From assembly GCA_030077755.1 (NCBI GenBank), contig JAQJZZ010000012.1, positions 62,001 to 126,000 of the forward strand: a stretch of 64,000 nt of DNA, in the 5' to 3' direction. Origin of the DNA: Filosporella fistucella. Its lineage: Eukaryota; Ascomycota; Leotiomycetes; Helotiales. Under the pieces are notes generated by a model. It worked only from the letters and a program-made list of their open reading frames with translations, had not been told where the DNA came from and made no database searches. The translations under genes and the position numbers were made by a program. Shown piece after piece: positions 7,066-49,468 of the stretch (the first letter of the stretch is position 1; every line of letters starts with the position of its first letter).

Positions 7066-7785
7066 ATGGGCCGCATCCCATTACTCTCAGAATTTCCACC
7101 GAATATTACTCTCTCGATAGTTTCGCCTTCCAAAGGTTCGCCCATTAACGTCCTCCTTCTACTTCATGGCCTCGGCGACACACACACCTCTTTCACAACT
7201 CTCGCCAAAAACCTTAACCTCCCAGAAACAGTCTGCCTCTCTCTTCGTGGGCCAAACCCCATCCCTCCCTTATTTACTGGCTCTGATACCCCTGCTTTCC
7301 ATTGGGGAGATGATGTGCTAGTCGATGAGAGCAGAGGAGAAATAGAAATGGATGCCGGATTCAACACAATAGAGAGAATGCTTGGCACTGTGAAAGAGGT
7401 GTTGTCAAAATGTGGGTTCAAGGAACGAGAAATCGTGTTCTTTGGTTTTGGTCAGGGAGGGATGGCAGCTTTGGATTTTGTCGCCCGAAACCCAGAAGTT
7501 GAGTACGGAGGGGTGGTATCGATTGGTGGTCGATTACCAAGTACTTCGACTGGAGAAAAAGGCAAGACTCCGGTTCTGGTTTGTGCTGGCAGCAAGAGTA
7601 CCCTAGTAACTAGAAGCGCTGTGGACAAGTTGAAAGAGCGATTTGGGGATTTTGAGTATGTGAAGTGGGCAAAAGCAGACGATTCCATGATGAAGAACAG
7701 AGATGAGATGATGCCAATCATGAAATTCTTTGCGAGGAGGTTAAGGAGTAGGGCAGGTGTACCAGAAGGCGCAGTGGAAGTTTAG
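7066..7785 (+). CDS. Acyl-protein-thioesterase-like alpha/beta hydrolase lacking catalytic residues
   Basis: A single-exon gene of 239 aa. The fold matches the phospholipase/carboxylesterase (acyl-protein thioesterase) family: VLLLLHGLGDT with the oxyanion-hole HGLGD at 34-38, a Trp-containing segment (FHWGDD), the nucleophile-elbow strand and the C-terminal PVLVCAGS strand. The elbow reads GFGQGG at 127-132, so Gly129 replaces the catalytic Ser of GxSxG. The usual catalytic Asp position (GSKSTLV, Ser178) is Ser, and the catalytic His position lies in ADDSMMK (205-210) with no His nearby. The frame is intact with no lesions, so this looks like a preserved pseudoenzyme or binding protein, not a decayed gene. 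It is convergent with TRM61. What it binds is unknown. Confidence 0.8.
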   Translation: MGRIPLLSEFPPNITLSIVSPSKGSPINVLLLLHGLGDTHTSFTTLAKNLNLPETVCLSLRGPNPIPPLFTGSDTPAFHWGDDVLVDESRGEIEMDAGFNTIERMLGTVKEVLSKCGFKEREIVFFGFGQGGMAALDFVARNPEVEYGGVVSIGGRLPSTSTGEKGKTPVLVCAGSKSTLVTRSAVDKLKERFGDFEYVKWAKADDSMMKNRDEMMPIMKFFARRLRSRAGVPEGAVEV

Positions 7786-35320: not shown

Positions 35321-35764
35321 CGGTATTGCGCAGAATAGGAGTGACTGTAAGTGAAGTTCTTTTCGGAGGACGACAAAAAATGGACAGTAAAACGGTCACT
35401 GTTGGGATGTTCTCGCGCTCTGTAAGCAGGAGAATAGCAGCAGCGTTTTGGGCGAGAGGCCAAGCTAACCACCAGTGAAGGGTCCAACCACAACTCCACA
35501 TCGGTCTAAGTACCTGTAATGCTGCACCTTCAGGCTGATTTCAAGAGGCTCATCGATAATTGACTCTTGAAGGTCTTTGAAAGTTTTTCTGCGAGGTTCC
35601 ACTTTTCACGATATTATTCAATACAATGATAAAAGGAATTATCATTCATCGGAATTAAAGATTTAAGGCGCAGTGCTGGAAGTCTTTCCTCCCTTCCCTC
35701 AAAGCCATGGATTTCCTACCAGTGAAGGATATGCTTCAGCTGCTCTCCAAGCCTATCACAAACT
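35321..35764. other. Intergenic region
   Basis: About 440 nt between the kinase-like gene and the lectin relic. No supportable coding frame was found. Confidence 0.45.
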
Positions 35765-36062
35765 CTAAATACTGGTTCGAGACTGCCAAACTGCACTGGT
35801 ATTCCCATCCTTTGTCTCGTACAGCACCAAATTCCGATCATCCTAAAGGATGAGCCAGCAATTGGCGTATTGCCATGGCTTGCCAGTATGAGTCGCCCAC
35901 AGCGATTTATCCGTCCCATCATACAAAACAAGATTGCGATCCAGTCGCGCGTCGAGATGAAAAGGTGAAGCTCCCATGCCACCGGATGATTGTTTAGCGC
36001 GAATATAGTAAATTGTTCCACAGTCTGAGTAGTAGATGAACTAGAAGCTAATGATTTGAACG
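35765..36062 (-). pseudogene. Bulb-type (B-) lectin relic
   Basis: On the minus strand one frame shows two repeats of the mannose-binding bulb-lectin pattern: DARLDRNLVLYDGTDKSLWA and DDRNLVLYETKDGNTSAVWQ, each with the NLVLY core and a terminal Trp. Between them, after ANCWLIL, an in-frame TAG (35843-35845) stands where such lectins usually have Gln (LQxDxNLVLY). A second in-frame TAG (36041-36043) precedes IYYSDCGTIYYIRA, the expected first repeat. The frame ends with TAG at 35765. Both internal stops could each be a single C-to-T change from CAG. No splice sites remove them. It is therefore probably a dead lectin gene about 100 codons long. Live fungal members are small sugar-binding proteins. 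Confidence 0.65.
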
Positions 36063-36128
36063 ATTCGAACAATCCAAGCGACCGAATTCCATTCTTATTA
36101 CGCTTTCAACCCCATTTGAATTCTGACT

Positions 36129-39100
36129 TTATTGAACGTTCTTCCTAACCCTAAAACCGATGCCAGGGATACGACTCCTCAAAGCCAGGCTACTACAAAC
36201 CACAGATATGCTGCTGAGCGCCATCGCCAACGATGCCCAAACTGGATCAAGTCTGATATGCTTTCCGTTACCTGCAACAATTGGATACAATAGCCCTGCT
36301 GCAACAGGTAACGCAATCATGTTATATACAAGAGCCCATGCAAAATTAAGCTTGATGCGTCTGAAGACCATCTGGCTAAGGTCGAGGAGAGTGACGAGGG
36401 AGTTGAGGTTGGATTTGATCAGCACGAAATCGGCACTCGAAATCGCAATATCAGAGCCACTGCCAATTGCGATTCCAATATCTGCAACCGTTAAAGCTGG
36501 GGAGTCGTTGATTCCGTCACCAACCTACTGATATGTTAGCATAAGTTATAACGGCATGACTCGAAATCAAGAAAAGAGAATAAGATCTATGTATGAATCA
36601 GGAAGCATGGGTGGTCAAGGTTGGACTGTTGGAAGAATTAAGCATGATGCGTATCAAAATGCGACTCACCATGGCAATCAGCGCTCTCTGGGTCTCTAAT
36701 TTCCCACCTTTCGCTTTAAGTGATCGTTGCAAGTAACGTATGTGCTCCGACTTTTGATGGGGAAGGACATCTGCGATAATGTTCGTGGAAGGAATACCGG
36801 CCATTAACCCTACTGCATTTGCGGTGATTTGATTATCACCTGAAAGCATCCATACGGCTGTCCCACGGTCTTTCAACGTAGCAATAACACTATGGGCTTC
36901 AGGCCTGATTGGGTCGGAGATAGAGAACATGGCGCAAAGATAATATGTTGGTGGTAGCAAGTTGATGTTGGAAGCGATGGCCGCTAGTGCGACTGACTTT
37001 CCTTGCCTTTTCCAGGCACCGAGGGTAACTTGGGAAGCTGGTGGAATCCAGACATTGTTTTCGAGCATGAAATTTTCGTTGCCGATGATCGTAGTCATTT
37101 TTGGGCCTTGTACCAAAGATCCCTTCATTTCTTGGTATGTTCCTTTCATCCCCTTTCCTGGAATCTCCTCGACATCAATATCCTTTCCATCCAAAATGTG
37201 CGTTCCTGCTGTCCTGCAAAAGGAGACAATAGCTTTTGCAATCGTATGACTACTGTTTCCCTCGATATCATGGATCATCTCAAGAACCAATTTCTCGCTA
37301 ATGGTGTGTTGGGGGGCATTCGAAAAGAAGTCTTTGGAGAACTCGAAATCTGTGACGACTGGTTCTTCACCGACAGTGAGAGTACCTGTTTTATCAAAAA
37401 CCACGCAGTCTAACTTGCTAGCCAGTTCAAATGCCTCACCACCGCCCTTCACTAGGATACCGTATTTTGCCGCAAGACCACCTCCAACAAATAAGGCTGT
37501 TGGAGCAGCGAGCGCAAGACCGCAAGGGCAAGCCACAACAAAAACGGCAATTGCGAACTGCAGAGACCAAACTATCCAACCTGGGCTACCATCTAGGTAG
37601 CTAGCAGGAATAGAGTTCGAATACGCTAAGGTGAGCCAGGTAGCCCACGTGAAAATGGCAAGAGCAATAACAAAGGGAATAAAGTAGCTAGTCAAGCTAT
37701 CGGCAATCCTCTCTATCGGAGCTCTCCTTGTCTGACCTTCACGGACGATCCTGACAATTTGATCAAGCATAGAAGAGCCCGCGAGGCTAGTAATTTCTAC
37801 AGAAATCGGTGCTCCTTTGTTAATTGTTCCGGAGAAAACTTGGTCCCCAACGATTTTCTTGACACGTTTCGATTCTCCTGTTAAACTCGATTCGTCAAAC
37901 GCGGTTTCCCCTTGTACGATAGTCCCATCGCAAGCCGGTGACCCACCGGGTCGGACTTTGATAATGTCTCCAAATTCAAGGAGATTAACATTGATCACTT
38001 TCGTAATATCGCCTTGCTTTCCGTTGTCCAGTTCTCGATCGACGAGAAGTGCATCAGTGGGTCTCATGCTCCCTAGCATAGAGACAGCGTCATCAGTTTT
38101 CGACTTGCTATATGATTCAATAGAGCGTCCAAGGAGAAGGAAAAAGGTCAAAAAAACGACCGAGTCGAAATGAAAGCAGTGGTTATTGACCGCCTCTTTG
38201 GTGTGGTAAAGGTCATTGGCGACCAACTGAGCGACAGAAGCGGTATAAGCGATAGACGTTCCCAGAGACATAAGTAGACTCATGCTTCCAAATCGATAGA
38301 ATCTTTGGAAGAAAGGGGTAGCGCTGTCTTTTCTCCAGAGCGATTGAATTTCCTTTATAGCTCGTCTATGGAATAGATCGGCGCAGCAAAAGTACACTGG
38401 AGTGGACAAGATGAAAAGTGCCCATTGAGCGCGACTGACTCTATTCAGAAGAGGTTGGTCGAGGAATTGACGGCGAGGATCGTTGAGCGGAACAAATATC
38501 ATGTAAATTATTCCAATTACGAGGGTTGGGATGGATAAAATAAAGGTGATGAAGACTCGAATATACAGTCTTCGCTGTTCTTTCGCCTGTATCTGCCGAG
38601 AGTAGTCCTCGATAGACGGGGGTTGATATATTGACAGTTCCAAAGCTGGATTTTCATTCGAAATAATAGCGAGAATGTGGCGAATTGTGAAACTTGGAAG
38701 TACAGGTGTGTAAGTAAGTCGCAAAATGGGGCTTTCGATCGTCGGGGCGACCTCTAGGTGTATCCTGTCGCCGAAATAATTTTTCAGAGCAGCAAGGATC
38801 CGACTCGGACAGTCCTCAGACAAGATTCCTTTTATGAGGATCTCAACGGTTCTTGTCGCTCCTTGTAGCCCAGTAACGGACTTGGAATCGCTGAGATCGA
38901 TGACACTCTTGAGTATCGCATCATAGCCGAGATCCTCAATAGCTTCGACGAGATCATCTTTGTGTGCCTCGCCGATGAAGTCAATCACGGCGTTATGGGC
39001 AATAAGATTGATAGAGACATTCTTAACCCAGTCTTTCTTCAATAGGTTTTCAGTGATGATATTTACACAAGAAGCACAAGTTATCCCTCCTAATAGTTCT

Positions 39101-39335
39101 GTCAGTAAACTTCTTTAACAATTATATCAAGAACCAGGAAAGACTTGGACTTGGCATAAAAATAGTTAATATTTATAATCCAAATCTCAAAAGCGTTAAC
39201 TCTTTCCCCGATATTTATAGCATTGGGGGAAGTAAGCATCTACGTACCAATGGCAAGCGATGCTTGCCATGTGGTCATTGAATCTCCTGACGCGGTAGAA
39301 TCAATGACAACGGTCAGTGGAGCAGATGATTCCAT
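36129..39335 (-). CDS. P1B-type copper-transporting ATPase
   Basis: Three exons (39335-39248, 39089-36670, 36524-36129) encode about 967 aa. It is a heavy-metal P-type ATPase of the copper class (CCC2/ATP7/CrpA group), moving Cu(I) across membranes. The first metal-binding domain has GGITCASC (Cys34, Cys37). A second HMA-like domain has KGILSEDCP, where Ser replaces the first Cys of CxxC. A third HMA-like region ([17 protein letters not shown]) lacks Cys. Membrane metal site: [13 protein letters not shown] (Cys550-Pro-Cys552). Actuator: SLTGES. Phosphorylation: DKTGTLT. Hinge: [11 protein letters not shown]. The nucleotide-binding His-Pro motif reads [11 protein letters not shown], with Thr after His. 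The gene is divergent from an isocyanide synthase across about 630 nt, which suggests co-regulation. Golgi loading or efflux cannot be told apart here. Confidence 0.9.
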
Positions 39336-39965
39336 ATTCAGGTCTGTTGTAGATTTTCTCCTTGATACTCCGTTATCACAGGAGTGAGAAGTAACAGGTT
39401 GCAAACCTTGTTTATTACTTTGGTATCAATCACGAAACAGGTAGACTTGATTCTTCCTTCTTTCGTTAATTAAAGACTTAGATTAAAAAAAGATCGTTGT
39501 ATAGTAACGCAAGATGTGGAAAGAAATCAAAGAGAGTATAATCATGCTACGAGAAAAAAAACGCGAAAATAAAGCTGTTAATGCAGATAGCTTTGTTGTT
39601 AAATGTTCGCATAAGTGCGGCGAGGGAAGAGTGAAAAGCGTACGAAGGATACTGCCAAATGTCAAAAACTAGACTACAAGAGGCTAGGATACCAACAAAC
39701 AGTCTGACTGGCCATGATTCATTCCACTGGAAAGAGGTGGGGTGAAAATTCAGATTACACTGAATCCGGTATAAATCAGAGCTGAGTAGGCAAGTCAGCC
39801 TCGGAAGAGAGCACAAACTTGTTTCAAGCAACGAATTCGCGCGTTTGACCAACCCATCCAGTCAACTCAGCTGCGAATGGTTGTATTGATAACAACAAAC
39901 TTTCCCTAGAAGCTAGACAGGTGACATTTTCAAATATCCTAGACAAGACATTGAGTCTCAGATAG
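39336..39965. promoter_or_regulatory. Shared promoter of copper ATPase and isocyanide synthase A
   Basis: About 630 nt lie between the two divergent start codons with no coding frame. A TATAAAT at 39770-39776 could serve the plus-strand synthase, 190 nt upstream of its assumed ATG. One degenerate match to the Ace1/Amt1 copper element (ATAAAGCTGT, 39569-39578) occurs, but such a loose motif is expected by chance about once in a region this size. No exact Mac1-type TTTGCTC box was found. Confidence 0.5.
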
Positions 39966-41743
39966 GTGTCGGGGCAAGTTCCACAAAACATGTCTCTTCC
40001 ACGCTGTGTATTAAAGCGGCCGAGGAAAACGACGGGATTGTCTCGAGGCTACCTCGAATACTCCTGGTTGTCGATCCGATCTTTCACTCATAGCTTGAAG
40101 ATATTATACTACCCTGCTTCGAACATTGAATTTAACGGGGACCCTCTGTCTCCCTTTACTCATGTGGATTTCGCAATGATGTCGTATCAAAAATTCGATT
40201 TGCATACCCAATTTACGACTCGCATATTCCGAATCTTTTCTTCTTTGTTCAGCGCAGTTTATCATACTTTTGCTCTTTTCCAGGGCAGCGCTCAGGCAGC
40301 CCTTGAGGCTAACGGGGTGAAGGACAGTACTTTTGATGCCAGAAAGAAGATCTGCACAGAGATAGATCATGGTAGTGTCCAAGCTATCGACACCCTGAAA
40401 ATCTTTTCCCAGCATGATGGAACAGTGAAGGATATTATGGATGTGATCGAGAGTTTCAGTCTTCACAATCTAGGGGAGGGATTTCAAGGAAGAGCAGTGT
40501 TTTCACCTCGAGTCAGACGACATGTCTCCGCGGGACGCAAGATTCCCATGGTGCTTCCAGCATTCCCGGCGAAGAGCATCAACTGCGCGGAGAAAGTTTT
40601 GGGGCCGTTACCAGACTTAGGAGAAGAACTAGCTTTGGCCAGGCTGAACGACCTTTGCAAATGCATCCAGAAAGTCTATAGCCCGGGAGCAACGATTTTG
40701 CTTGCGACTGATGGCCCTTGCTACAATGGTATGTCAAATCTATTATATCTGAGAAACTATATTGACTCCTTTTTCAAGATCTTACTGGAGTCCTTGTGGA
40801 CGATTTATGGGAATATGGAGCGCAGGTCCGAGATATGGTCGCGACCAAGGGATACACGTGTATTGAATTTATAGATACCGTGGAACTCCTCGGTTTGCAC
40901 AACGATTCTGAGATAACCAAGGAAAAGTTCATTAGCCTCCTGGGACCTGCTAGAAAGGAGCTGGAGCGCAGATACGGAGATCCCAACTTCGATGCTTCTG
41001 CCTGTATCAAGAACGATCCCGATTACAAGATGACATATGATGGATATGCCAAGTTCTTGAAGAAGGACCTAGCTTATGGTGTGATCCGCTCATCGGTGCC
41101 AAGCGGGAAGAAGTATAAAGCTTATGTTCACGAGACTGCCAAAGCAATGATTGCGAGAGGTGTGGTAAGTCTGGAATCTTCCCTTTCTTGTTCGCGTTAC
41201 TAAACTTGAAAGGCGTTTTCGAAACTCATTCTTGAGAGGTATCCCGAGCACGTGCGACTTTCAATTCATCCATCTACAGGACGGACTAAAATTTCTATAC
41301 CTTTGATTCCGACTGATTCCTTCTCCATGACGCCGGTAAGTTATTATTTATTGAATACAATCCTCCTGTTTCAAGGAGCTGAGAAAATTATCCATGAATC
41401 TCACCATTCAGACTAGAGAAGCATTACTAACTGGGGAAATGTCCAGTGGCACTCCGTAGTGGTTGTAGATGAGCACGGCAACTTCACGACTACGCACAAG
41501 GCTGAACTTCACAAAACACACGATCTAGTCTACAAGCATGGCCGGCCTTACCACTTCAGAACACGTGCAAGTGTGTACCAGTTTGACGCGAAAGTGGAAT
41601 TTGAACATTTGTATGGCCGTGGCTTGATCATCAAGAATGCCGAAGAAGGACAGACCAGAAATTGTCTCGGTGATGCCGACAAAGAGAAAATTGCTTTGCT
41701 TGCCATCCTACAGGGAAATGTTCAGTTGAAGGGCTTCCTGTAA
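39966..41743 (+). CDS. Isocyanide synthase A (DIT1/PvcA family)
   Basis: Four exons (39966-40728, 40779-41164, 41213-41335, 41447-41743) encode up to 522 aa. The family installs an isocyanide on amino acids such as Tyr, Trp, Val or Leu (PvcA, IsnA, fungal xanthocillin and crm enzymes); yeast Dit1 belongs to it. The motifs run in family order: [12 protein letters not shown] (about 193-204), [38 protein letters not shown], the conserved [19 protein letters not shown] segment, then [13 protein letters not shown] and the C-terminal [11 protein letters not shown]. The N-terminal 115 residues are unlike the paralogue and may be mis-started; a tttgctcttttccag acceptor-like site near 40266-40280 hints at an extra intron. 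The gene is divergent from the copper ATPase, with the second synthase 0.7 kb downstream on the same strand. Confidence 0.82.
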
Positions 41744-42471
41744 TCAATTTGCTTGGTATCTAACATGTATTCATATTTGTCCAAAGTCTTTGAACAGTGC
41801 TTCTGTTTTTGAACTTTGGGCTCTGTCTACCACACTTTTTCGAATCTCTCGAGTCTACCTTACACTCAGTTATGATTCCAGGGCAATACCTAAACATAAT
41901 GTCATTTCTACCCGGAGGGCAAATCACTGTCGTGCGGTGGCTCTGGCAATAAACGGTGGTTTGTGGTTTGTGGTATTGGACTCCTGTTCCCTGGCGTAAA
42001 GAGAATCATGTAGGGCTTCAGATTGTAGTTGATGTTTCTCGTCGCTACAAAAATCACGAGAAAGGACTCATCTGACCTCGTACTTGTTGGGATTGAGGAA
42101 AAAGCAATGTCTCGGTGGTTATGTCTTTGAAGACGAGGTTACACTAGCAAAAACAAAGCCCACGTCAGTCAATTGAGTTCCCGAGAACAAACAAAAGTGA
42201 ACTAGTGAACCTATAAGCTATATTTGAGGCTGAAACCGGATCACCATTACTTTGCTCCACGCTATGTACAGTATCAGGCGCAGTAGCTATCTGGAGGTGT
42301 CCACTCCACTTTGTGTTGCACTTATGTGTAGCTGAGGTTCTGTTGTGGCAGTAATAATTCAATCTCAATTGTCCCATGACTTTAGAATCTGTGAGAAGCT
42401 GAGGTGTTTGGCCTTTGGACGCAAGTAAGCAAAAACTCTTCACCGAAATTGTCCCCCAATCTCAGAGCAAT
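41744..42471. other. Intergenic region between the two isocyanide synthases
   Basis: About 730 nt with no supportable frame. It should contain the terminator of synthase A and the promoter of synthase B. No repeat that would explain the tandem arrangement was seen. Confidence 0.45.
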
Positions 42472-43746
42472 ATGAACGCCATCACAGAGCCTGAAATTGG
42501 TAAAATCATAGGCATCTTTCGCCGATTCTCCCATTACAATGGTAATACTACTGCTACGGCGACAATTGAATATGAGGCCGCGATCTCGATGAAGATCAAA
42601 GCATTCCATGCCATCGCAAAACCGATATCCATGCTACTACCGGCCTTTCCATGGAAGAATCCAAATACAGACAAAGTTCTCAGTCGCTATCCAGATCTGG
42701 GGGAAGAGCTTGGGTTGGCAAGATTAAATCACCTCTGTGATGAGATCGAGAAGGTCTACCCGCACGGGGCATATGTCACTTTGGTTGCTGATGGGCCTGT
42801 TTACAACGGTACGTCATGAAAGGATGATTTATGATGAAGCAGAACAGAAGTTGACGCTTACATTTAGATCTTCTTGGTATCCCGGATGCAGACTTCTACG
42901 ATTATGGAGTCCAGGTGCGCGGTATGGCTAAAGAGAAGGGCTTCTCACGCATCAAGTTCTGCCGCTTGATGGACGTGTTGGATCTTGGAGACGGCGACAC
43001 CACTTCAAGAGATGAATATCTAGCTATGTCAGAGAAGTGTCGAACTGAGATGGAATCGAGATTCCTTGGGCCGACTTCTAACCTCTGGCTCGAGATCGAG
43101 AAAAACAAAGATACTGGTGCGACATTCCAGAAGTACGTCAAGTCTTCTCAAGAAGATCTCTGCTGGGGTCCCGATACTCCATTGGCTGTCGTCCAGGATC
43201 CTGAATTGTATACTGCGGAAAGCAAAAGAATTGCAAGGCGCATGACGGAAAGATTGCTCGTACGAGCTCATTCTAATCTCTGGGGAGCTATTTCTAACAG
43301 TTTGACAGGCTTATGAGAGACTTCTGGAGTTCAAGTACCCCTACTTCATCAGACTTTCCATCCATGCCGGTACAGGTAAAACCAAGATTTCGATACCGCT
43401 TATTCCACAACCAAATTCATTCGGGCTCATGCCCTGGCATTCTTGTGTCGTGGTTACGGCGAACGGGGAGTACCGCACCGGCTACTCGAAGGATTTTCGT
43501 GATAGAGATCTCTACGAAATTGTTCTAAAAGATGGAAAGCCTTATTGTTTGCGTGAGAAACATCCTGTTTTTGACTGGCCCGCACATATCCAAATATATC
43601 ATGAATATGGGTCCCAAGTTAGTGTAGTCAATACTTCAACAGAAGAGAGTCAAATGGTTTTGAGCAAGGATGACAGAGTTAGGCTTGCAAATCTAGCCAT
43701 CATTTTTAGGGGGTTACGGGTTCGTGGGTGCATTCTGCAAGCCTAA
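42472..43746 (+). CDS. Isocyanide synthase B (DIT1/PvcA family)
   Basis: Three exons (42472-42808, 42868-43259, 43309-43746) encode about 388 aa. The family motifs match synthase A but are clearly diverged: [12 protein letters not shown] (53-63), [73 protein letters not shown] and [15 protein letters not shown]. An intron ending in DGPxYN-G occurs at the same place as in A, showing common descent. It starts directly at [16 protein letters not shown], close to where family similarity begins, so it is about 130 residues shorter than A. No stop or frameshift was found, so both copies look functional. It converges on the amidase gene. The amino-acid substrate cannot be read from sequence. Confidence 0.85.
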
Positions 43747-44057
43747 ACCCTTTTACAGGTGTTGATTTACTATACCAAACAAGCCGAAAGCATTCTCATA
43801 GTATTGTTGTTAATGTATACTATTGGTGAACTCATTTTTCCTAAATTTTCTATTTTAGGATCTCACCACCATAGATTGAGGAAGCTCCCGTCTTTACATT
43901 TCGTAAAATACCAGCATCTACTAAGTCTACCACTAGGTTCAACAGCATTAAATCGCACCCTTTAGCAACCATAAGATTCAAGGTCACAGGTAGATACTCC
44001 TCGTGGTTTGTAATATCTGAATGATAACTCGTCTCGCCGACTAAAATTACTCCATTA
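43747..44057. other. Short convergent intergenic region
   Basis: About 310 nt separate the stops of isocyanide synthase B and the amidase. It is AT-rich with no supportable frame; both terminators must lie here. Confidence 0.5.
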
Positions 44058-46001
44058 TTATATTGACGAGAACATTCTCGCAGATAAGAGCAGCGTACCT
44101 GTAATAACTAAATCTGGTGTTTCGCTCATGACGCTCCAGTACCTCGGCGCAAAGCCAAATGGGACTCTTGGTGGGCTCCTATATGTATTTCGATATACAA
44201 CCACCGGCGGAGCACAATATACAAGAATTGAGGAAGAACATGCCCTATCGTCGGTGGTGAGGACATGCTGCTTGAACCAATCCATGAAAATAGTCTTCTC
44301 TTTGATCGCTTCGACAGCCGCGTTTTCCGGGAGACGTTCTCCATAGGCCCAGCGTGCCAGTGGAACTGGATTAACGAAAGGGCGTCTCCCGTTATACTTA
44401 CTAGCATAATCATTGTAAAATCGATCTCGTACTAGGTGGACCTGGCGCTGGGTTATCAAGTTTGTATACGTAGTATTCAGGAGAGTGGTCAGACTTTCAG
44501 GCGCAGTTTTGGGCCTTGAGTTCTGCCATACCGAATCAATGTTATATGTTGTCTGGTTTTGAATCCCCAGAAAATTGATTAATCCTCCCATAAATTTGTT
44601 CACCGCGGCTGTACTCTCAATGCTTAGATTTGGTGGGAGATCTACTGCCAGGATTTGACGAGGATATCCACGCGAGATGTTGTTGCAGGATTGTCCAGAG
44701 ATAATAGCAGCAGCATCACGCAAGAGAGCGGGCTCTCGTACGATCAAGGCAGGTGTATCAAACTCCGGGGCTAAGGGTGTAGTATGTGTCATGGCAACCA
44801 GTCCATGAGACGGTCGAAGAGCATAGAGTCCCTGCACTCGAGCTGGTCCTCGAATGCTTCCCCCCGTGTCCGTTCCAATAGCGATATCTAACCACGGATA
44901 TGCAGCGATCCCAGCACCGGGGCCAGCAGAAGAAGAATTTGGGTCTTGCTGACCATCACCGCGTGGGTTGAATGGACAGTGATAATCGATCCAGTCTGAA
45001 GTACCATACTCCATATTAGCAAATTGTGTTGTCTTCATCTTACCCACCACAATCGCTCCTGCATCAATGAGCCTCTGAACCGGTAATGCTGTAAAGTTTG
45101 CATTTGGGTATAGATTATACCATTGACGATTGCCGTTACCAGTTTTCACTCCCGAGATATCGAAAATGTCCTTCACACCCAAACGGGTACCTGCCAATGG
45201 TTTCTCTGCTGTTTTCTTGAAGTACAAACGTGACGGGACTGCGATTGCAAGAGATTGACCAGCTAAACCGGCTGGTAGAACTGAGTGTATGCCTACGGGA
45301 TTCGTGTATGTGGACTCGCTGAATGCCATTTGGTGATCTCTGTATAGTCGGTATGCTCGGTGTAGTCCTACCGCGGAGAAGAAATAAGGACCTTCAGAAA
45401 TTTCTTGACCAAAAATATTTCTGACATCTTCGAATAGGAAACAACTGCTTCTCGATTCTTCGCAGGATGAGGTAGGAAATATCTTGGAACTTTCGCCTGC
45501 CCTAATTGGTGCAAAGATGACTAGAACAAAAACATATTAACTGACAACTATCTGAGAACACGAGCTCTGCACACACCTTTTGTGAACTCATCTTGCCAAA
45601 CATCGTCTTGATTTTGGTAGCGAGCAAACGTCCAAGACGCGGCTTTAACGGGGTCGCTCCCAAAGTCGCTGTCAACAACGGTGAGAGGCAAGAAGCCTCC
45701 AGCAGCTGCAGCAAAGTCCTGTAGCTTCTGAATAACAGGGCTGTTGCCTATAGGTTCAACGAAATCCGGGGGGATCCACTTTAGTATATTATTAGCATGT
45801 TATGAGCAGTTGAGCCGTATTTGGGGAGAAGAACAGGTTGGCAGAACTTTCACATATTCGGCAAAAATATTTGGACGGAAAAAAGACGGGATTCATTACA
45901 TATGGGATGCCATTGATAGTAGCTGTTGAACCAGTGATGTTCATAGCCTGATTTGTCCCCAAGCCTGCCAGTACAGCCAGAATCACTTGCTGTATCGCCA
46001 T
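44058..46001 (-). CDS. Secreted amidase-signature hydrolase
   Basis: Three exons (46001-45900, 45778-45577, 45520-44058) encode about 588 aa. Residues 1-19 form a signal peptide ([19 protein letters not shown]). An N-terminal region of about 140 residues precedes the amidase domain, as in many fungal paralogues. The Ser-cisSer-Lys machinery is visible: catalytic Lys in [14 protein letters not shown], the bridging Ser in [12 protein letters not shown], and the nucleophile Ser in [17 protein letters not shown]. The mid and C-terminal parts ([26 protein letters not shown]) match the family. Amidase-signature enzymes cleave amides, including small or acyl amides. Next to isocyanide synthases and a putative isonitrile hydratase, it could act on the formamide made from an isocyanide, but that is conjecture. 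It is divergent from the MFS gene. Confidence 0.82.
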
Positions 46002-46798
46002 TGCGACTTTCTGTCGAGAAGAACTTGATGAGTAAAGTTGAAGTTCGTCATGCTTAAAATTATGCAAGGTAAATTGGCTTGTGTGCTGAACTCTTCGAAA
46101 ATCACGGATTCTCCTGGTCACAATATCTCGGATATCTAACTCTAGAACATATTTTACATTCCCTGCTTGTGGATCTTCTGTATCTTAGATGTTGACTTAC
46201 TCCGTAAGACAGTCATCCGCTAATTCTGGAAGAAGGAAAACTGTGGATCTTGATCAGAGGCAAGTTGACGACGAACGGTGGTCAAAGCTTCGGTACGGTT
46301 GGAGAGATATGTGAAACTTAAAAGATTGCCAAGCAGACTTTCCGATCGCAATCGATCAAACCTTCATTTCTCTGTGTGCGTCAAGAGAAATTGTGCACTT
46401 ACATGACGTTGGAATTACAAGGGCGCCACTCGGAATGCTCCTGAACGGTCCAAGTATCCATCAGTCCGAACTCGTATCTTCTTTGTTTCTGTCACGCGGT
46501 AGGATGTGACAATTGAGTCCACGGAACCTTCAACGTCTCACTTCAGCTCTCCTGCAAGGAAATGAATAGTGGTTTCGGTGACCACCTTGAGATCCGGTTG
46601 GAATGGAGGACTTTTCTGTGACATGGCGAAGAGCGTCATGCTTCACCATTTTCTTCCAATCACTTCAGATTTCACCTACTTCATCGAATGAGCGTCGTTG
46701 GGTGTAATCCCAGCCGATTAATCGCTTTTATTTTCTCAATTTATTCTAACTTTCAAGTTCCCTCCCTTCGATTCTTCAATACAACAGCTGGTTGAGCG
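46002..46798. other. Shared promoter region of amidase and MFS transporter
   Basis: About 800 nt between divergent start codons with no supportable frame. Pyrimidine-rich sequence lies upstream of 46799. No known regulatory motif could be named with confidence. Confidence 0.45.
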
Positions 46799-48197
46799 AT
46801 GCGCGAGGCAACAGTCACACGAGAGGCGACAGAGCAAACGTCGCTGTTGCAAAACAATGCGAACGACGAGGAGAAAGTCCCAGAGGGAGGCGTTATAGCA
46901 TGGACACAGGTTTTCATGGGCCATCTGGTCATTTTCAACTGCTGGGGATATATAACTTCGTCAGTTAACTTCACCAAAATCTAAATCCATAAACCCTTTG
47001 AACTAACAGCTTTCGAGATTTGGCTTCTTCCAACAGTATTATCTGCAGCACCTAGAAAAGTCAGCTGCTGCCATTTCTTGGATAGGAGGGATGCAAATGT
47101 TTCTTCTTAACTTTGTAGGTATTTTCTCTGGCAGGGCTGTTGATCTGGGCTACTTCAAACACTCTTTGGTTCTCGGTTGTGCACTGCAGATTGTGGGAAT
47201 TTTCTCGACAGCCATTGCTACGGAGTACTGGGAAATACTCCTTGCACAGGGTATCGTTACTGGACTTGGACACGGATTTCTCTTTGCGCCTATCATTTCT
47301 ATCCTTCCAACTTATTTCAAGAAGAATCGAGCTCTGGCGGTATCCTTGGCAACCTGTGGGGCAGCGACGGGTGGGATGGTATTTCCCATCATAGCATATA
47401 CATCTATGGACCGACTGGGCTTTGAGAGGACTGTTGCGATTATGGGTCTCGTTGTTACTTTCAATGCAGGAATGATACTCACTTTTACGAGAACTCGTAT
47501 TCAGCCAAGAAAATCGAGGTCCCTTCTTGATATCAGTGCCTTCGAAGAGTTACCGTTCAATTTGTTCGCCATAGGATCCTTTTTCATTCTTTGGGGTGTC
47601 TATTTTGCGTATTTCTATGTAAGTCTGGGCGTTATCGACTTCCACAAACAACACTAATATACATATATACAGATTGGGGCATTTGCTCGCGCAGTTCTAG
47701 ATTTCAACTCGAGTCAATCCTTGACCATCATCATTACAATGAACGGCGTAGGGGTATTTGGGCGGATTTTCGGGGCGCTGCTCGCAGACAAATATTTCGG
47801 GATATTGAATACCTTGATTCCAGCTGTTGGGATCACGGGTATTCTTCTGATCGGGTGGATCCGTGTGACAGCCGTTAAAGATTTGTTTTGTTGGGCAGTG
47901 GTTTATGGCATTGCTGCAAACACCACGCAGAGTTTGTTCCCCGCAGCCGTTGGTTCTCTCAGCAAAGATGCTACCAGAGTTGGAACGCGAGTAGGCATGA
48001 TTCTTGGCGTAGTGAGCATTTCCTGCTTGACAGGTCCCTCCATTGGTGGCGCATTAATCTCTTTGAATAATGGCGATTTCTTGTACGCACAGCTGTTTGG
48101 AGGATTCACACTTCTGGGTGGTGGACTGTTCTATCTCGCAGTAGCCTTGATAAACCGCTCGAGGAATCCACGAGCAGGTACACCCTTACAAGCATAG
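46799..48197 (+). CDS. MFS transporter, monocarboxylate-transporter-like
   Basis: Three exons (46799-46959, 47018-47618, 47673-48197) encode about 428 aa. After a short cytosolic N-terminus with a TSLLQNNANDEEKVPEGGVI segment, the first helix reads AWTQVFMGHLVIFNCWGYIT, joined across intron 1 to SFGFFQQYYLQH, a hallmark of fungal monocarboxylate-type (MCT/SLC16-like) carriers. The conserved SWIGGMQMFLL, GHGFLFAPIISILPTYF, KKNRALAVSLATCGAATGGM and TGPSIGGALI segments follow. Twelve membrane helices are expected. In fungi these carriers move organic acids, riboflavin or secondary metabolites. Its place between the amidase and the DJ-1-type gene makes it a candidate exporter or importer for the nearby isocyanide pathway; the substrate is unknown. 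Confidence 0.85.
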
Positions 48198-48603
48198 GTA
48201 ATTAAGAAAGGCGTAGGTAGGTTTGCTGAGGAAGGGTACCTAGGCAAGGATTCTCGCACGGTGAAATATGTCAATATATCTGTACTACCTATAGAGCGAC
48301 TTTTATTGCCCAGGGAAAAGTGGCCTAACAATGTGGTTTTCATAGCCTCGCTTTCTCTGTGAACTGTAAGTGTAAGGTACTTACCTAGGTATTGTACAAT
48401 TATGCACCGCGGTAGGTTGCGAGTAGGTAGATAGCGCGTAGCTACCGCAGGGAAAAGCAAATACAACTCGAGGTGACAGTAGTTTGAGTCACATGAGCAA
48501 CTGCAAAATGAAAGGAATGGAGATTACTAGTCCCTTACAGTCCCGGAGAATATATATATGGCGCCCATCTACCCATCTCCCCACATTTACCTCCTACATA
48601 CCT

Positions 48604-48610
48604 TATATAA
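48604..48610 (+). promoter_or_regulatory. TATA box of the DJ-1/PfpI gene
   Basis: TATATAA lies 60 nt before the ATG at 48670. That spacing makes 48670 the likely first start codon in the mRNA, and so favours the longer, presequence-bearing protein. The call rests on motif and position. Confidence 0.45.
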
Positions 48611-48669
48611 GAGTCCTTCCCACCCTCCGAAATACAGTCCTTACCCAAACCTTGCGACGTGAAGTCGGG

Positions 48670-49468
48670 ATGATAAGGAGCAAACTGCACGCGATACCTG
48701 CCTTCCGAAACATTCTAACTTTGCCATCTCGCTCGCAATTGAGCATGTCTCTCTCAACCACTCGTGAGCGTCTCTGCTTTCATACTCACCCATCACTATT
48801 TCTGACGAGCAGAGACAGCGAAGCCCAAGCCCGTCAATTTTGGCATCGTTCTCTTCCCTGCCTTCCAAGCACTTGATGCCTTTGGCCCCCTGGATGCGCT
48901 CAACATCTTGGCTCGCTCGTACAGAATGAATTTATATCTTATTGCAGAAACCTTGGAGCCTGTATCGACCAAACTACTCGGAGAACAGCCAATGGGTTCC
49001 AACTTCGGGCAGAGCATTGTACCAACACATACGTTCCAGACTGCGCCACCGCTAGATGTGCTGCTCGTGCCAGGCGGCCAAGGAACTCGTGCTGAAGGCA
49101 TCACTACTACCATCGATTATATCCAGCGCGTCTTTCCTACGCTGCAATATCTGATCACCATCTGCACTGGATCGGGTCTTGCAGCGCGTGCGGGCATATT
49201 GGATACAAAGAACGCGACAACAAACAAGATGTCCTGGAAGGCAACAGCAGCGCTGAGGTCCGAAGTGCGATGGGTGCCGCATGCTCGCTGGGTGGTCGAT
49301 GGGAATATCTGGACATCATCGGGGATTAGCGCAGGCATTGATGTCACGTTTGCATGGATAGAAGCCGTGTATGGTAAAGATGTTGCCGAAAGCATCGCGA
49401 ATAGAATGGAATATCGGCGCCAAACGGATGCAAGTTCAGATCCTTTCGCTGAACTCCATGGTCTGTAA
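48670..49468 (+). CDS. DJ-1/PfpI-family protein, candidate isonitrile hydratase
   Basis: Two exons (48670-48763, 48813-49468) encode about 249 aa, or 224 aa from the inner ATG at 48745. The fold is class I glutamine-amidotransferase-like (DJ-1/ThiJ/PfpI): VNFGIVLFPAFQALDAFGP, DVLLVPGGQGT, and the nucleophile elbow LITICTGSGLAARAGIL. Cys149 is followed by Thr150, and an Asp lies in QALDAFGP (Asp53). Bacterial isonitrile hydratase InhA, of this family, uses an Asp and a Cys-Thr pair at matching places to turn isonitriles into N-formamides. Many fungal DJ-1 proteins share these residues, so the assignment leans on the isocyanide synthases 5-9 kb away. The first 25 residues (MIRSKLHAIPAFRNILTLPS) are basic and acid-free, like a mitochondrial presequence. 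Confidence 0.75.

Follow-up and report, generated by a model that had tools for sequence, protein, structure and literature searches.

A window of 64,000 nucleotides of Filosporella fistucella DNA (C11:62001–126000, in a genome assembly of 45.8 Mb and 19 contigs) carries six neighbouring genes, which encode a P1B-type copper ATPase, two isocyanide synthases (ICSs, named ICS1 and ICS2), an amidase, a carrier of the major facilitator superfamily (MFS) and a DJ-1/PfpI protein resembling isonitrile hydratases. Judged from sequence, this locus is probably a secondary-metabolite cluster, the core of which would consist of ICS1, ICS2 and the amidase; the carrier and the DJ-1 hydratase would most likely belong to the cluster as well. 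Membership of the amidase appears well supported and that of the carrier and hydratase seems likely, whereas membership of the ATPase is unproven. The locus is a new member of a cluster family that has already been reported, but for which no described product was found.

The Two Synthases and Their Linkage in Other Fungi

Both synthases pass the curated cut-off of the DIT1_PvcA Pfam profile (26.4 bits), with 278.3 bits for ICS1 (E-value 9.3e-83, profile positions 1–271 of 273) and 273.6 bits for ICS2 (2.5e-81, positions 1–268 of 273), and are predicted to be full-length isocyanide synthases of the DIT1/PvcA type. The ICS1 query used in this comparison and in the search for relatives was a 462-residue version, which differs from the 452-residue model by its last acceptor. 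ICS2 also matches the structure of PvcA (3e59, E-value 3e-25). Three DIT1/PvcA genes are present in the genome, the third one (ICS3) lying about 690 kb away from the pair in the window, within a crm-like locus described below. ICS1 and ICS2 share 36% identity over 349 residues and thus look like old paralogues. In a FastTree phylogeny (194 rows, 379 columns), built from ICS1–3 and the 191 of 209 listed proteins that remained once those shorter than 300 residues were dropped, ICS1 belongs to a clade of 41 members (support 0.951) and ICS2 to a clade of 27 members (1.0). These two clades are sisters, joined at 0.971. Among the best 120 of 159 matches, relatives of ICS1 are found at 61–69% in Colletotrichum, Fusarium, Alternaria, Bipolaris and Hyaloscypha, and at about 50% in the grass Colletotrichum species. 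The relatives of ICS2, for which all 108 matches were considered, are found at 50–61% in Dactylonectria, Fusarium decemcellulare, Colletotrichum, Diaporthe, Lecanicillium, Pestalotiopsis and Boeremia.

An ICS1-type and an ICS2-type protein are both present in 13 listed species, which were picked by eye from the names in the two match lists. Twelve of them were typed by the synthase tree and the remaining one, Penicillium olsonii, by BLAST, its ICS2 being too short for the tree. The longest contigs carrying the two types are equally long in 10 of the 13 species, namely F. decemcellulare, Lecanicillium saksenae, Pestalotiopsis fici, Boeremia exigua, Stachybotrys elegans, Colletotrichum spinosum, C. 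graminicola, Penicillium brevicompactum, P. antarcticum and Talaromyces stipitatus. The locus tags of the two synthases are consecutive in three species (NM208_g5974/5975, NLG97_g5215/5216 and PFICI_08075/08076), and three apart in one (N7541_010673/010676). Paired ICS genes of both clades recur across fungi, in hosts that we take to belong to the Sordariomycetes, Dothideomycetes and Eurotiomycetes, yet no product of a two-ICS cluster was found in the literature.

The amidase is also found linked to ICS2. In two Colletotrichum proteins, P0261 and P0280, an amidase piece is joined to an ICS2 piece within one gene model. Their amidase parts match the window amidase at 60% and 63% over 281 and 421 residues, respectively, and their ICS parts match ICS2 at 53% and 60% over 286 and 157 residues. 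Both joins fall, as judged by eye, at the position of the last splice donor of the window amidase, so that these proteins resemble merged gene models on one strand, which they probably are; a real fusion transcript is possible. In the window, ICS2 and the amidase are convergent, tail to tail. The gene order differs, yet ICS2 and the amidase have stayed linked, and this speaks for selection to keep them grouped. P0006, an ICS1-type protein of Colletotrichum sojae, bears in its source the name glutamyl-tRNA(Gln) amidotransferase, perhaps an echo of an adjoining amidase.

Putative Hydratase, Carrier and Amidase

The DJ-1 protein matches the structures of the isonitrile hydratase InhA with an E-value of about 2e-18 (about 70 bits). 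Catalysis by InhA involves Cys101 as the nucleophile and Asp17 as the general acid/base (PMC10971408). Both catalytic residues are kept in the window protein, as C124 and D28, the alignment being shifted to allow for a solved chain numbered three higher than the published residues. The genome contains 13 DJ-1/PfpI matches, of which four, including the window protein, form one subfamily (tblastn). Compared over their pieces, the three other genes of this subfamily resemble the window protein at 48–61%, and the rest of the 13 are at most 38% alike or unmatched. Each of the two ICS loci has one of the four within 10 kb. The probability of finding DJ-1 genes at both ICS loci by random placement is 6e-6 when the four genes are considered and 8e-5 with all 13, both values being post hoc.

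The MFS protein has nine matches among solved sequences, every one of them a monocarboxylate transporter (MCT), and a carrier of this type would fit the movement of an isocyano-carboxylic acid. The N-terminus of the amidase is hydrophobic and looks, by eye, like a signal peptide. The closest paralogue of this amidase (C12:28939–30228, 51%) likewise lies near a contig end, 29 kb in.

A working scheme can be proposed from these features. Each synthase would act on an amino acid, converting its amino group to an isocyanide, so that one or two small isocyano-carboxylic acids are made. These monocarboxylates would be moved, presumably out of the cell, by the MCT-like carrier, while the DJ-1 enzyme would hydrate stray intracellular isocyanide to its N-formyl form, a means of self-protection. 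The amidase, perhaps secreted, might trim an amide or a formamide of the product.

Several observations weigh against this grouping. The two synthases are on contigs of unequal length in 3 of the 13 species (Dactylonectria macrodidyma, C. siamense and P. olsonii), and an equally long longest contig is a mere proxy for a shared contig. No ICS2-type protein was found, among the 108 matches, in the ICS1-bearing species Alternaria panax, Bipolaris sorokiniana and Hyaloscypha finlandica. No word common to the four intergenic stretches beyond chance was detected. The DJ-1 protein has no NCBIfam model above cut-off. It shares with the Pseudomonas InhA the DJ-1 family and the aligned catalytic Asp and Cys, but the overall similarity is modest and its best solved relative is 3mgk (ThiJ family, 132 bits, 2e-37), the molecule name of which gives no isonitrile activity.

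The Copper ATPase

The ATPase scores 470.1 bits against the copper-translocating model TIGR01511 (cut-off 397). The signature of the P1B-1 Cu(I) subgroup consists of CPC in transmembrane helix 6, NX6YNX4P in helix 7 and MX2SSX5S in helix 8. All three motifs are present in the window protein, together with DKTGT and GDGxND. It is predicted to be a P1B-1 Cu(I) ATPase and apparently an intact copper exporter. It departs from its close relatives in its N-terminal metal sites. It has a single CxxC pair, versus four in its paralogue on C10, and the second site is lost (SEDC) in this protein alone among 122 aligned rows (the best 120 of 1,987 matches, the window protein and the C10 copy). A tblastn search upstream of the gene found no counterpart of the outermost N-terminal domain of the C10 copy.

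The two copies are 58% identical. In the tree of the same 122 rows, the window ATPase pairs with P0127 (support 1.0), and the next to join are proteins of Phlyctema vagabunda and Coleophoma crateriformis (0.996). The C10 copy falls elsewhere, beside proteins from Mollisiaceae sp. and Mollisia scopiformis (0.997), a position that would probably place the fungus in the Helotiales. Of the 120 listed ATPases, 16 have a higher identity to the window copy than to its C10 paralogue. A recent local duplication is ruled out by this degree of identity and by the separate tree groups, and the gene, which lies at the cluster's edge, appears to stem from an old duplication and to have diverged since.

What connects the ATPase to the pathway is its position, and it may be either a recruited part or a mere neighbour. 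The genome holds five strong ATPase matches (P1B by score alone); one of these within 10 kb of an ICS locus would be expected about 0.5% of the time (chance ~0.005, post hoc). The sequence-only reading had proposed conserved linkage of the six genes in related genomes as a check. Of these genes, ICS2 proved linked to ICS1 and to the amidase, as seen above, but no ATPase has a locus tag near that of an ICS1 or ICS2 relative among the best 120 of 1,987 matches, 19 of which have a readable tag. With so few readable tags, and since a less similar linked copy may rank below these 120, linked ATPases in relatives are still conceivable. Colletotrichum sublineola and C. somersetense are present in the ATPase and ICS lists alike, on contigs that differ in length among the matches listed.

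Copper as a Possible Link

Could all six genes form a copper module? In such a module the isocyanides would bind Cu(I), and the divergent ATPase would be expressed together with ICS1 and handle copper for the pathway, either as a protection from copper brought in or for the loading of a cuproenzyme. This proposal is possible but doubtful. It draws on the divergent 840-bp promoter, on the complete set of Cu(I) motifs, on the low chance of such a neighbourhood, and on the published crm and xan clusters, which respond to copper (Lim et al. 2018, PMC5974471; Won et al. 2022, PMC9381783), the former carrying a copper importer. The closest relatives of the ATPase are, however, general copper ATPases among the matches listed, and the contigs of the two Colletotrichum species just mentioned also speak against it.

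The Mac1 core TGCTCA, derived from ChIP-seq in Fusarium oxysporum (PMC11563359), is absent from the ATPase/ICS1 promoter, from the stretch upstream of ICS2 and from that between the amidase and MFS genes. It occurs once between the MFS and DJ-1 genes, which makes one copy in 2,912 bp over the four stretches (0.2–0.5 expected in each). In comparison, three copies are found in the 750-bp NRPS/ICS3 promoter of the crm-like locus (NRPS, nonribosomal peptide synthetase; 0.74 expected, P 0.03). The 1,200-bp stretches upstream of four Ctr matches contain 3, 3, 1 and 2 copies (about 1 expected in each; P 0.11, 0.05, 0.66 and 0.25), amounting to 9 in 4,800 bp when pooled, with about 4 expected. In favour of the copper module, the looser word TTTGCTC has one copy upstream of ICS2 (P 0.14) and another between the MFS and DJ-1 genes (P 0.06). 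The counts of TGCTCA are small and thus weigh only weakly against Mac1 control. Since TGCTCA is not in excess, Mac1 sites were dropped as proof of copper control at the window. Ace1-type sites follow the pattern HTHNNGCTGD; they were dropped as well, this pattern being uninformative in all six stretches tested. The crm-like locus is a better candidate for copper regulation than the window.

The sequence-only reading had placed the six genes in one pathway of synthesis, transport, metal handling and self-protection. Of this, the biosynthetic cluster holds, with its two synthases and an enzyme resembling isonitrile hydratases, but the membership of the copper pump and the copper response do not follow, with no Mac1 core in the shared promoter, no shared word and no linked ATPase in the matches considered. 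A more specific scenario, which we regard as unlikely, is that an old two-synthase cluster recruited its own Cu(I)-exporting ATPase. Having lost three of the four CxxC pairs of its paralogue, this enzyme may pump without the usual autoregulation, and would shield the producer from copper carried or released by the isocyanide. If true, an isocyanide pathway would here include its own pump for copper efflux, not an importer, an arrangement of which no description was found in the literature. Should the ATPase belong to the cluster, isocyanide production would be tied to copper efflux and the idea of copper protection would become directly testable.

Other Readings of the Locus

It is improbable that the pathway is Dit1-like, in which case the isocyanide would be just an intermediate that the DJ-1 enzyme hydrates, giving N-formyl amino acids for a polymer of the wall or surface, and no metal would play a role. 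The synthases are single-domain enzymes, as is yeast Dit1, a hydratase-like gene adjoins them, and the yeast pathway ends in bisformyl dityrosine (Lim et al. 2018, PMC5974471). Nevertheless, two synthases and an amidase are unlike dit, and no Dit2-type P450 was seen in the window. The sequence-only reading had indeed noted that no P450 or 2OG-oxygenase is adjacent, and this agrees with the absence from the window of any P450 match (92 of 211 candidates scored) or TauD match (46 of 46 scored). That these are mostly unrelated neighbours near a chromosome end, with only ICS1 and ICS2 belonging together, is very improbable: a run of 16 telomere-type CCCTAA units does stand near the contig start (C11 bases 212–307), which places the locus about 100 kb from a contig end resembling a chromosome end, and no common promoter word was found, but the amidase is joined to ICS2 in Colletotrichum and a DJ-1 gene is present at both ICS loci. 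The biosynthetic cluster is the reading that we prefer, and its two synthases, amidase, carrier and hydratase make up a compact, ordered set of genes that could be expressed and read out.

Gene Models and a Second Isocyanide Locus

The order and orientation first proposed for the six genes, at 36129–49468, proved right, and an open spliced model was obtained for each of them (Table 1), with splice sites read by hand from the sequence. Pfam E-values are 2.9e-44 (E1-E2_ATPase) and 4.5e-10 (HMA) for the ATPase, 4.1e-25 (Amidase) for the amidase, 1.6e-22 (MFS_1) for the carrier and 1.5e-11 (DJ-1_PfpI) for the DJ-1 protein. No Ctr match (8 of 8 candidates scored) and no Zn2Cys6 match (150 of 369 candidates scored) were found in the window. 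A possible gene remnant (35716–36072, minus strand) lies between the ATPase and a kinase-like gene; this short stretch has an in-frame stop and resembles what we take to be a bulb-type lectin repeat.

Table 1. Features of the isocyanide synthase locus (positions within the window).
Feature	Position	Strand	Exons and basis
P1B-1 Cu(I)-type ATPase (predicted), 967 aa	36129..39335	-	Exons 39335-39248, 39089-36670, 36524-36129; Pfam, TIGR01511, motif alignments
Divergent promoter between ATPase and ICS1, 840 bp	39336..40175	.	TGCTCA (Mac1 core) count 0
ICS1, single-domain DIT1/PvcA isocyanide synthase (predicted), 452 aa	40176..41743	+	Exons 40176-40728, 40779-41164, 41213-41335, 41447-41743; Pfam, relatives, clade
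ICS2, second single-domain isocyanide synthase (predicted), 388 aa	42472..43746	+	Exons 42472-42808, 42868-43259, 43309-43746; Pfam, 3e59, clade
Amidase-signature enzyme, 638 aa	43850..46001	-	Exons 46001-45900, 45778-45577, 45520-44099, 44040-43850; Pfam
MFS carrier, monocarboxylate-transporter type, 428 aa	46799..48197	+	Exons 46799-46959, 47018-47618, 47673-48197; Pfam, solved relatives
DJ-1/PfpI protein, isonitrile-hydratase-like, 224 aa	48745..49468	+	Exons 48745-48763, 48813-49468; InhA structures, residues

The crm-like locus (C11:786000–799100) comprises an NRPS-like gene with AMP-binding, carrier and transferase domains, ICS3, an alpha/beta-hydrolase gene, an alcohol-acetyltransferase-like gene and a DJ-1 gene. 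For the latter, the score is 25.4 (cut-off 26.6) when the exon is taken by itself and 33.4 when its neighbours are included. The frame of ICS3 seems, by eye, to continue into ABC-transporter-like sequence (L008:7284–8299, plus strand), which suggests an ICS-ABC fusion; Pfam ABC_tran was found only in the next open reading frame, at 7736–8299 of L008. One ICS3 intron is without a canonical acceptor as read.

Comparison with Published Systems

The pairing of a copper pump and a putative isonitrile hydratase with two synthases had been thought undescribed. As far as the two synthases and their hydratase partner are concerned, this does not hold, since both are present in published ICS clusters (Lim et al. 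2018, PMC5974471; Nickles et al. 2023, PMC10153163). For the copper part the answer is divided. In the crm cluster, known from Aspergillus fumigatus and F. oxysporum, an isocyanide synthase is also linked to a copper transporter gene, the A. fumigatus crmD, which encodes a CtrA1 copper transporter, with crmB, crmC and crmD being little conserved in more distant species (Won et al. 2022, PMC9381783). However, CrmD is of the importer family and CrmA is an ICS-NRPS-like protein, whereas the window has a P1B ATPase of the exporting type. No P1B ATPase in an ICS cluster was found in the literature, the word ATPase occurring 0 times in the main texts of Nickles et al., Lim et al. and Won et al., supplements not covered. 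The xan (xanthocillin) cluster resembles the window by the association of an ICS with an isocyanide hydratase homologue (XanA), and differs from it in that XanB is an ICS-dioxygenase, a domain that is absent from the window.

Two other published systems contain two synthases. The A. fumigatus cluster ICS4G shares with the window its two ICS genes, icsA and icsB, and the hydratase homologues of the ThiJ/PfpI type that are drawn in ICS clusters of this species (figure legend in Lim et al. 2018, PMC5974471). Neither icsA nor icsB was expressed under the conditions used in that study, and the IcsA protein was found elsewhere to be 8.5-fold up under atorvastatin (PMC7344724). It is not an exact match to the window locus because IcsB carries a dioxygenase, whereas both window synthases are single-domain.

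The other two-synthase system is gene cluster family 1 (GCF 1), described in a preprint by Nickles et al. 2023 (PMC10153163), in the main text of which no word beginning with ATPase or amidase is found. Among ICS clusters in general, MFS genes are reported there in about 60% and hydratases in 21.1%. GCF 1 has two ICSs arising from an ancestral duplication, and a small clade separates the two ICS clades in the published tree, whereas these are direct sisters in the smaller tree presented here. The features that mark GCF 1, two ICS genes in one cluster and two clades from one ancestor, are found at the window locus, which also has in common with this family its single-domain ICSs and its patchy distribution over ascomycetes.

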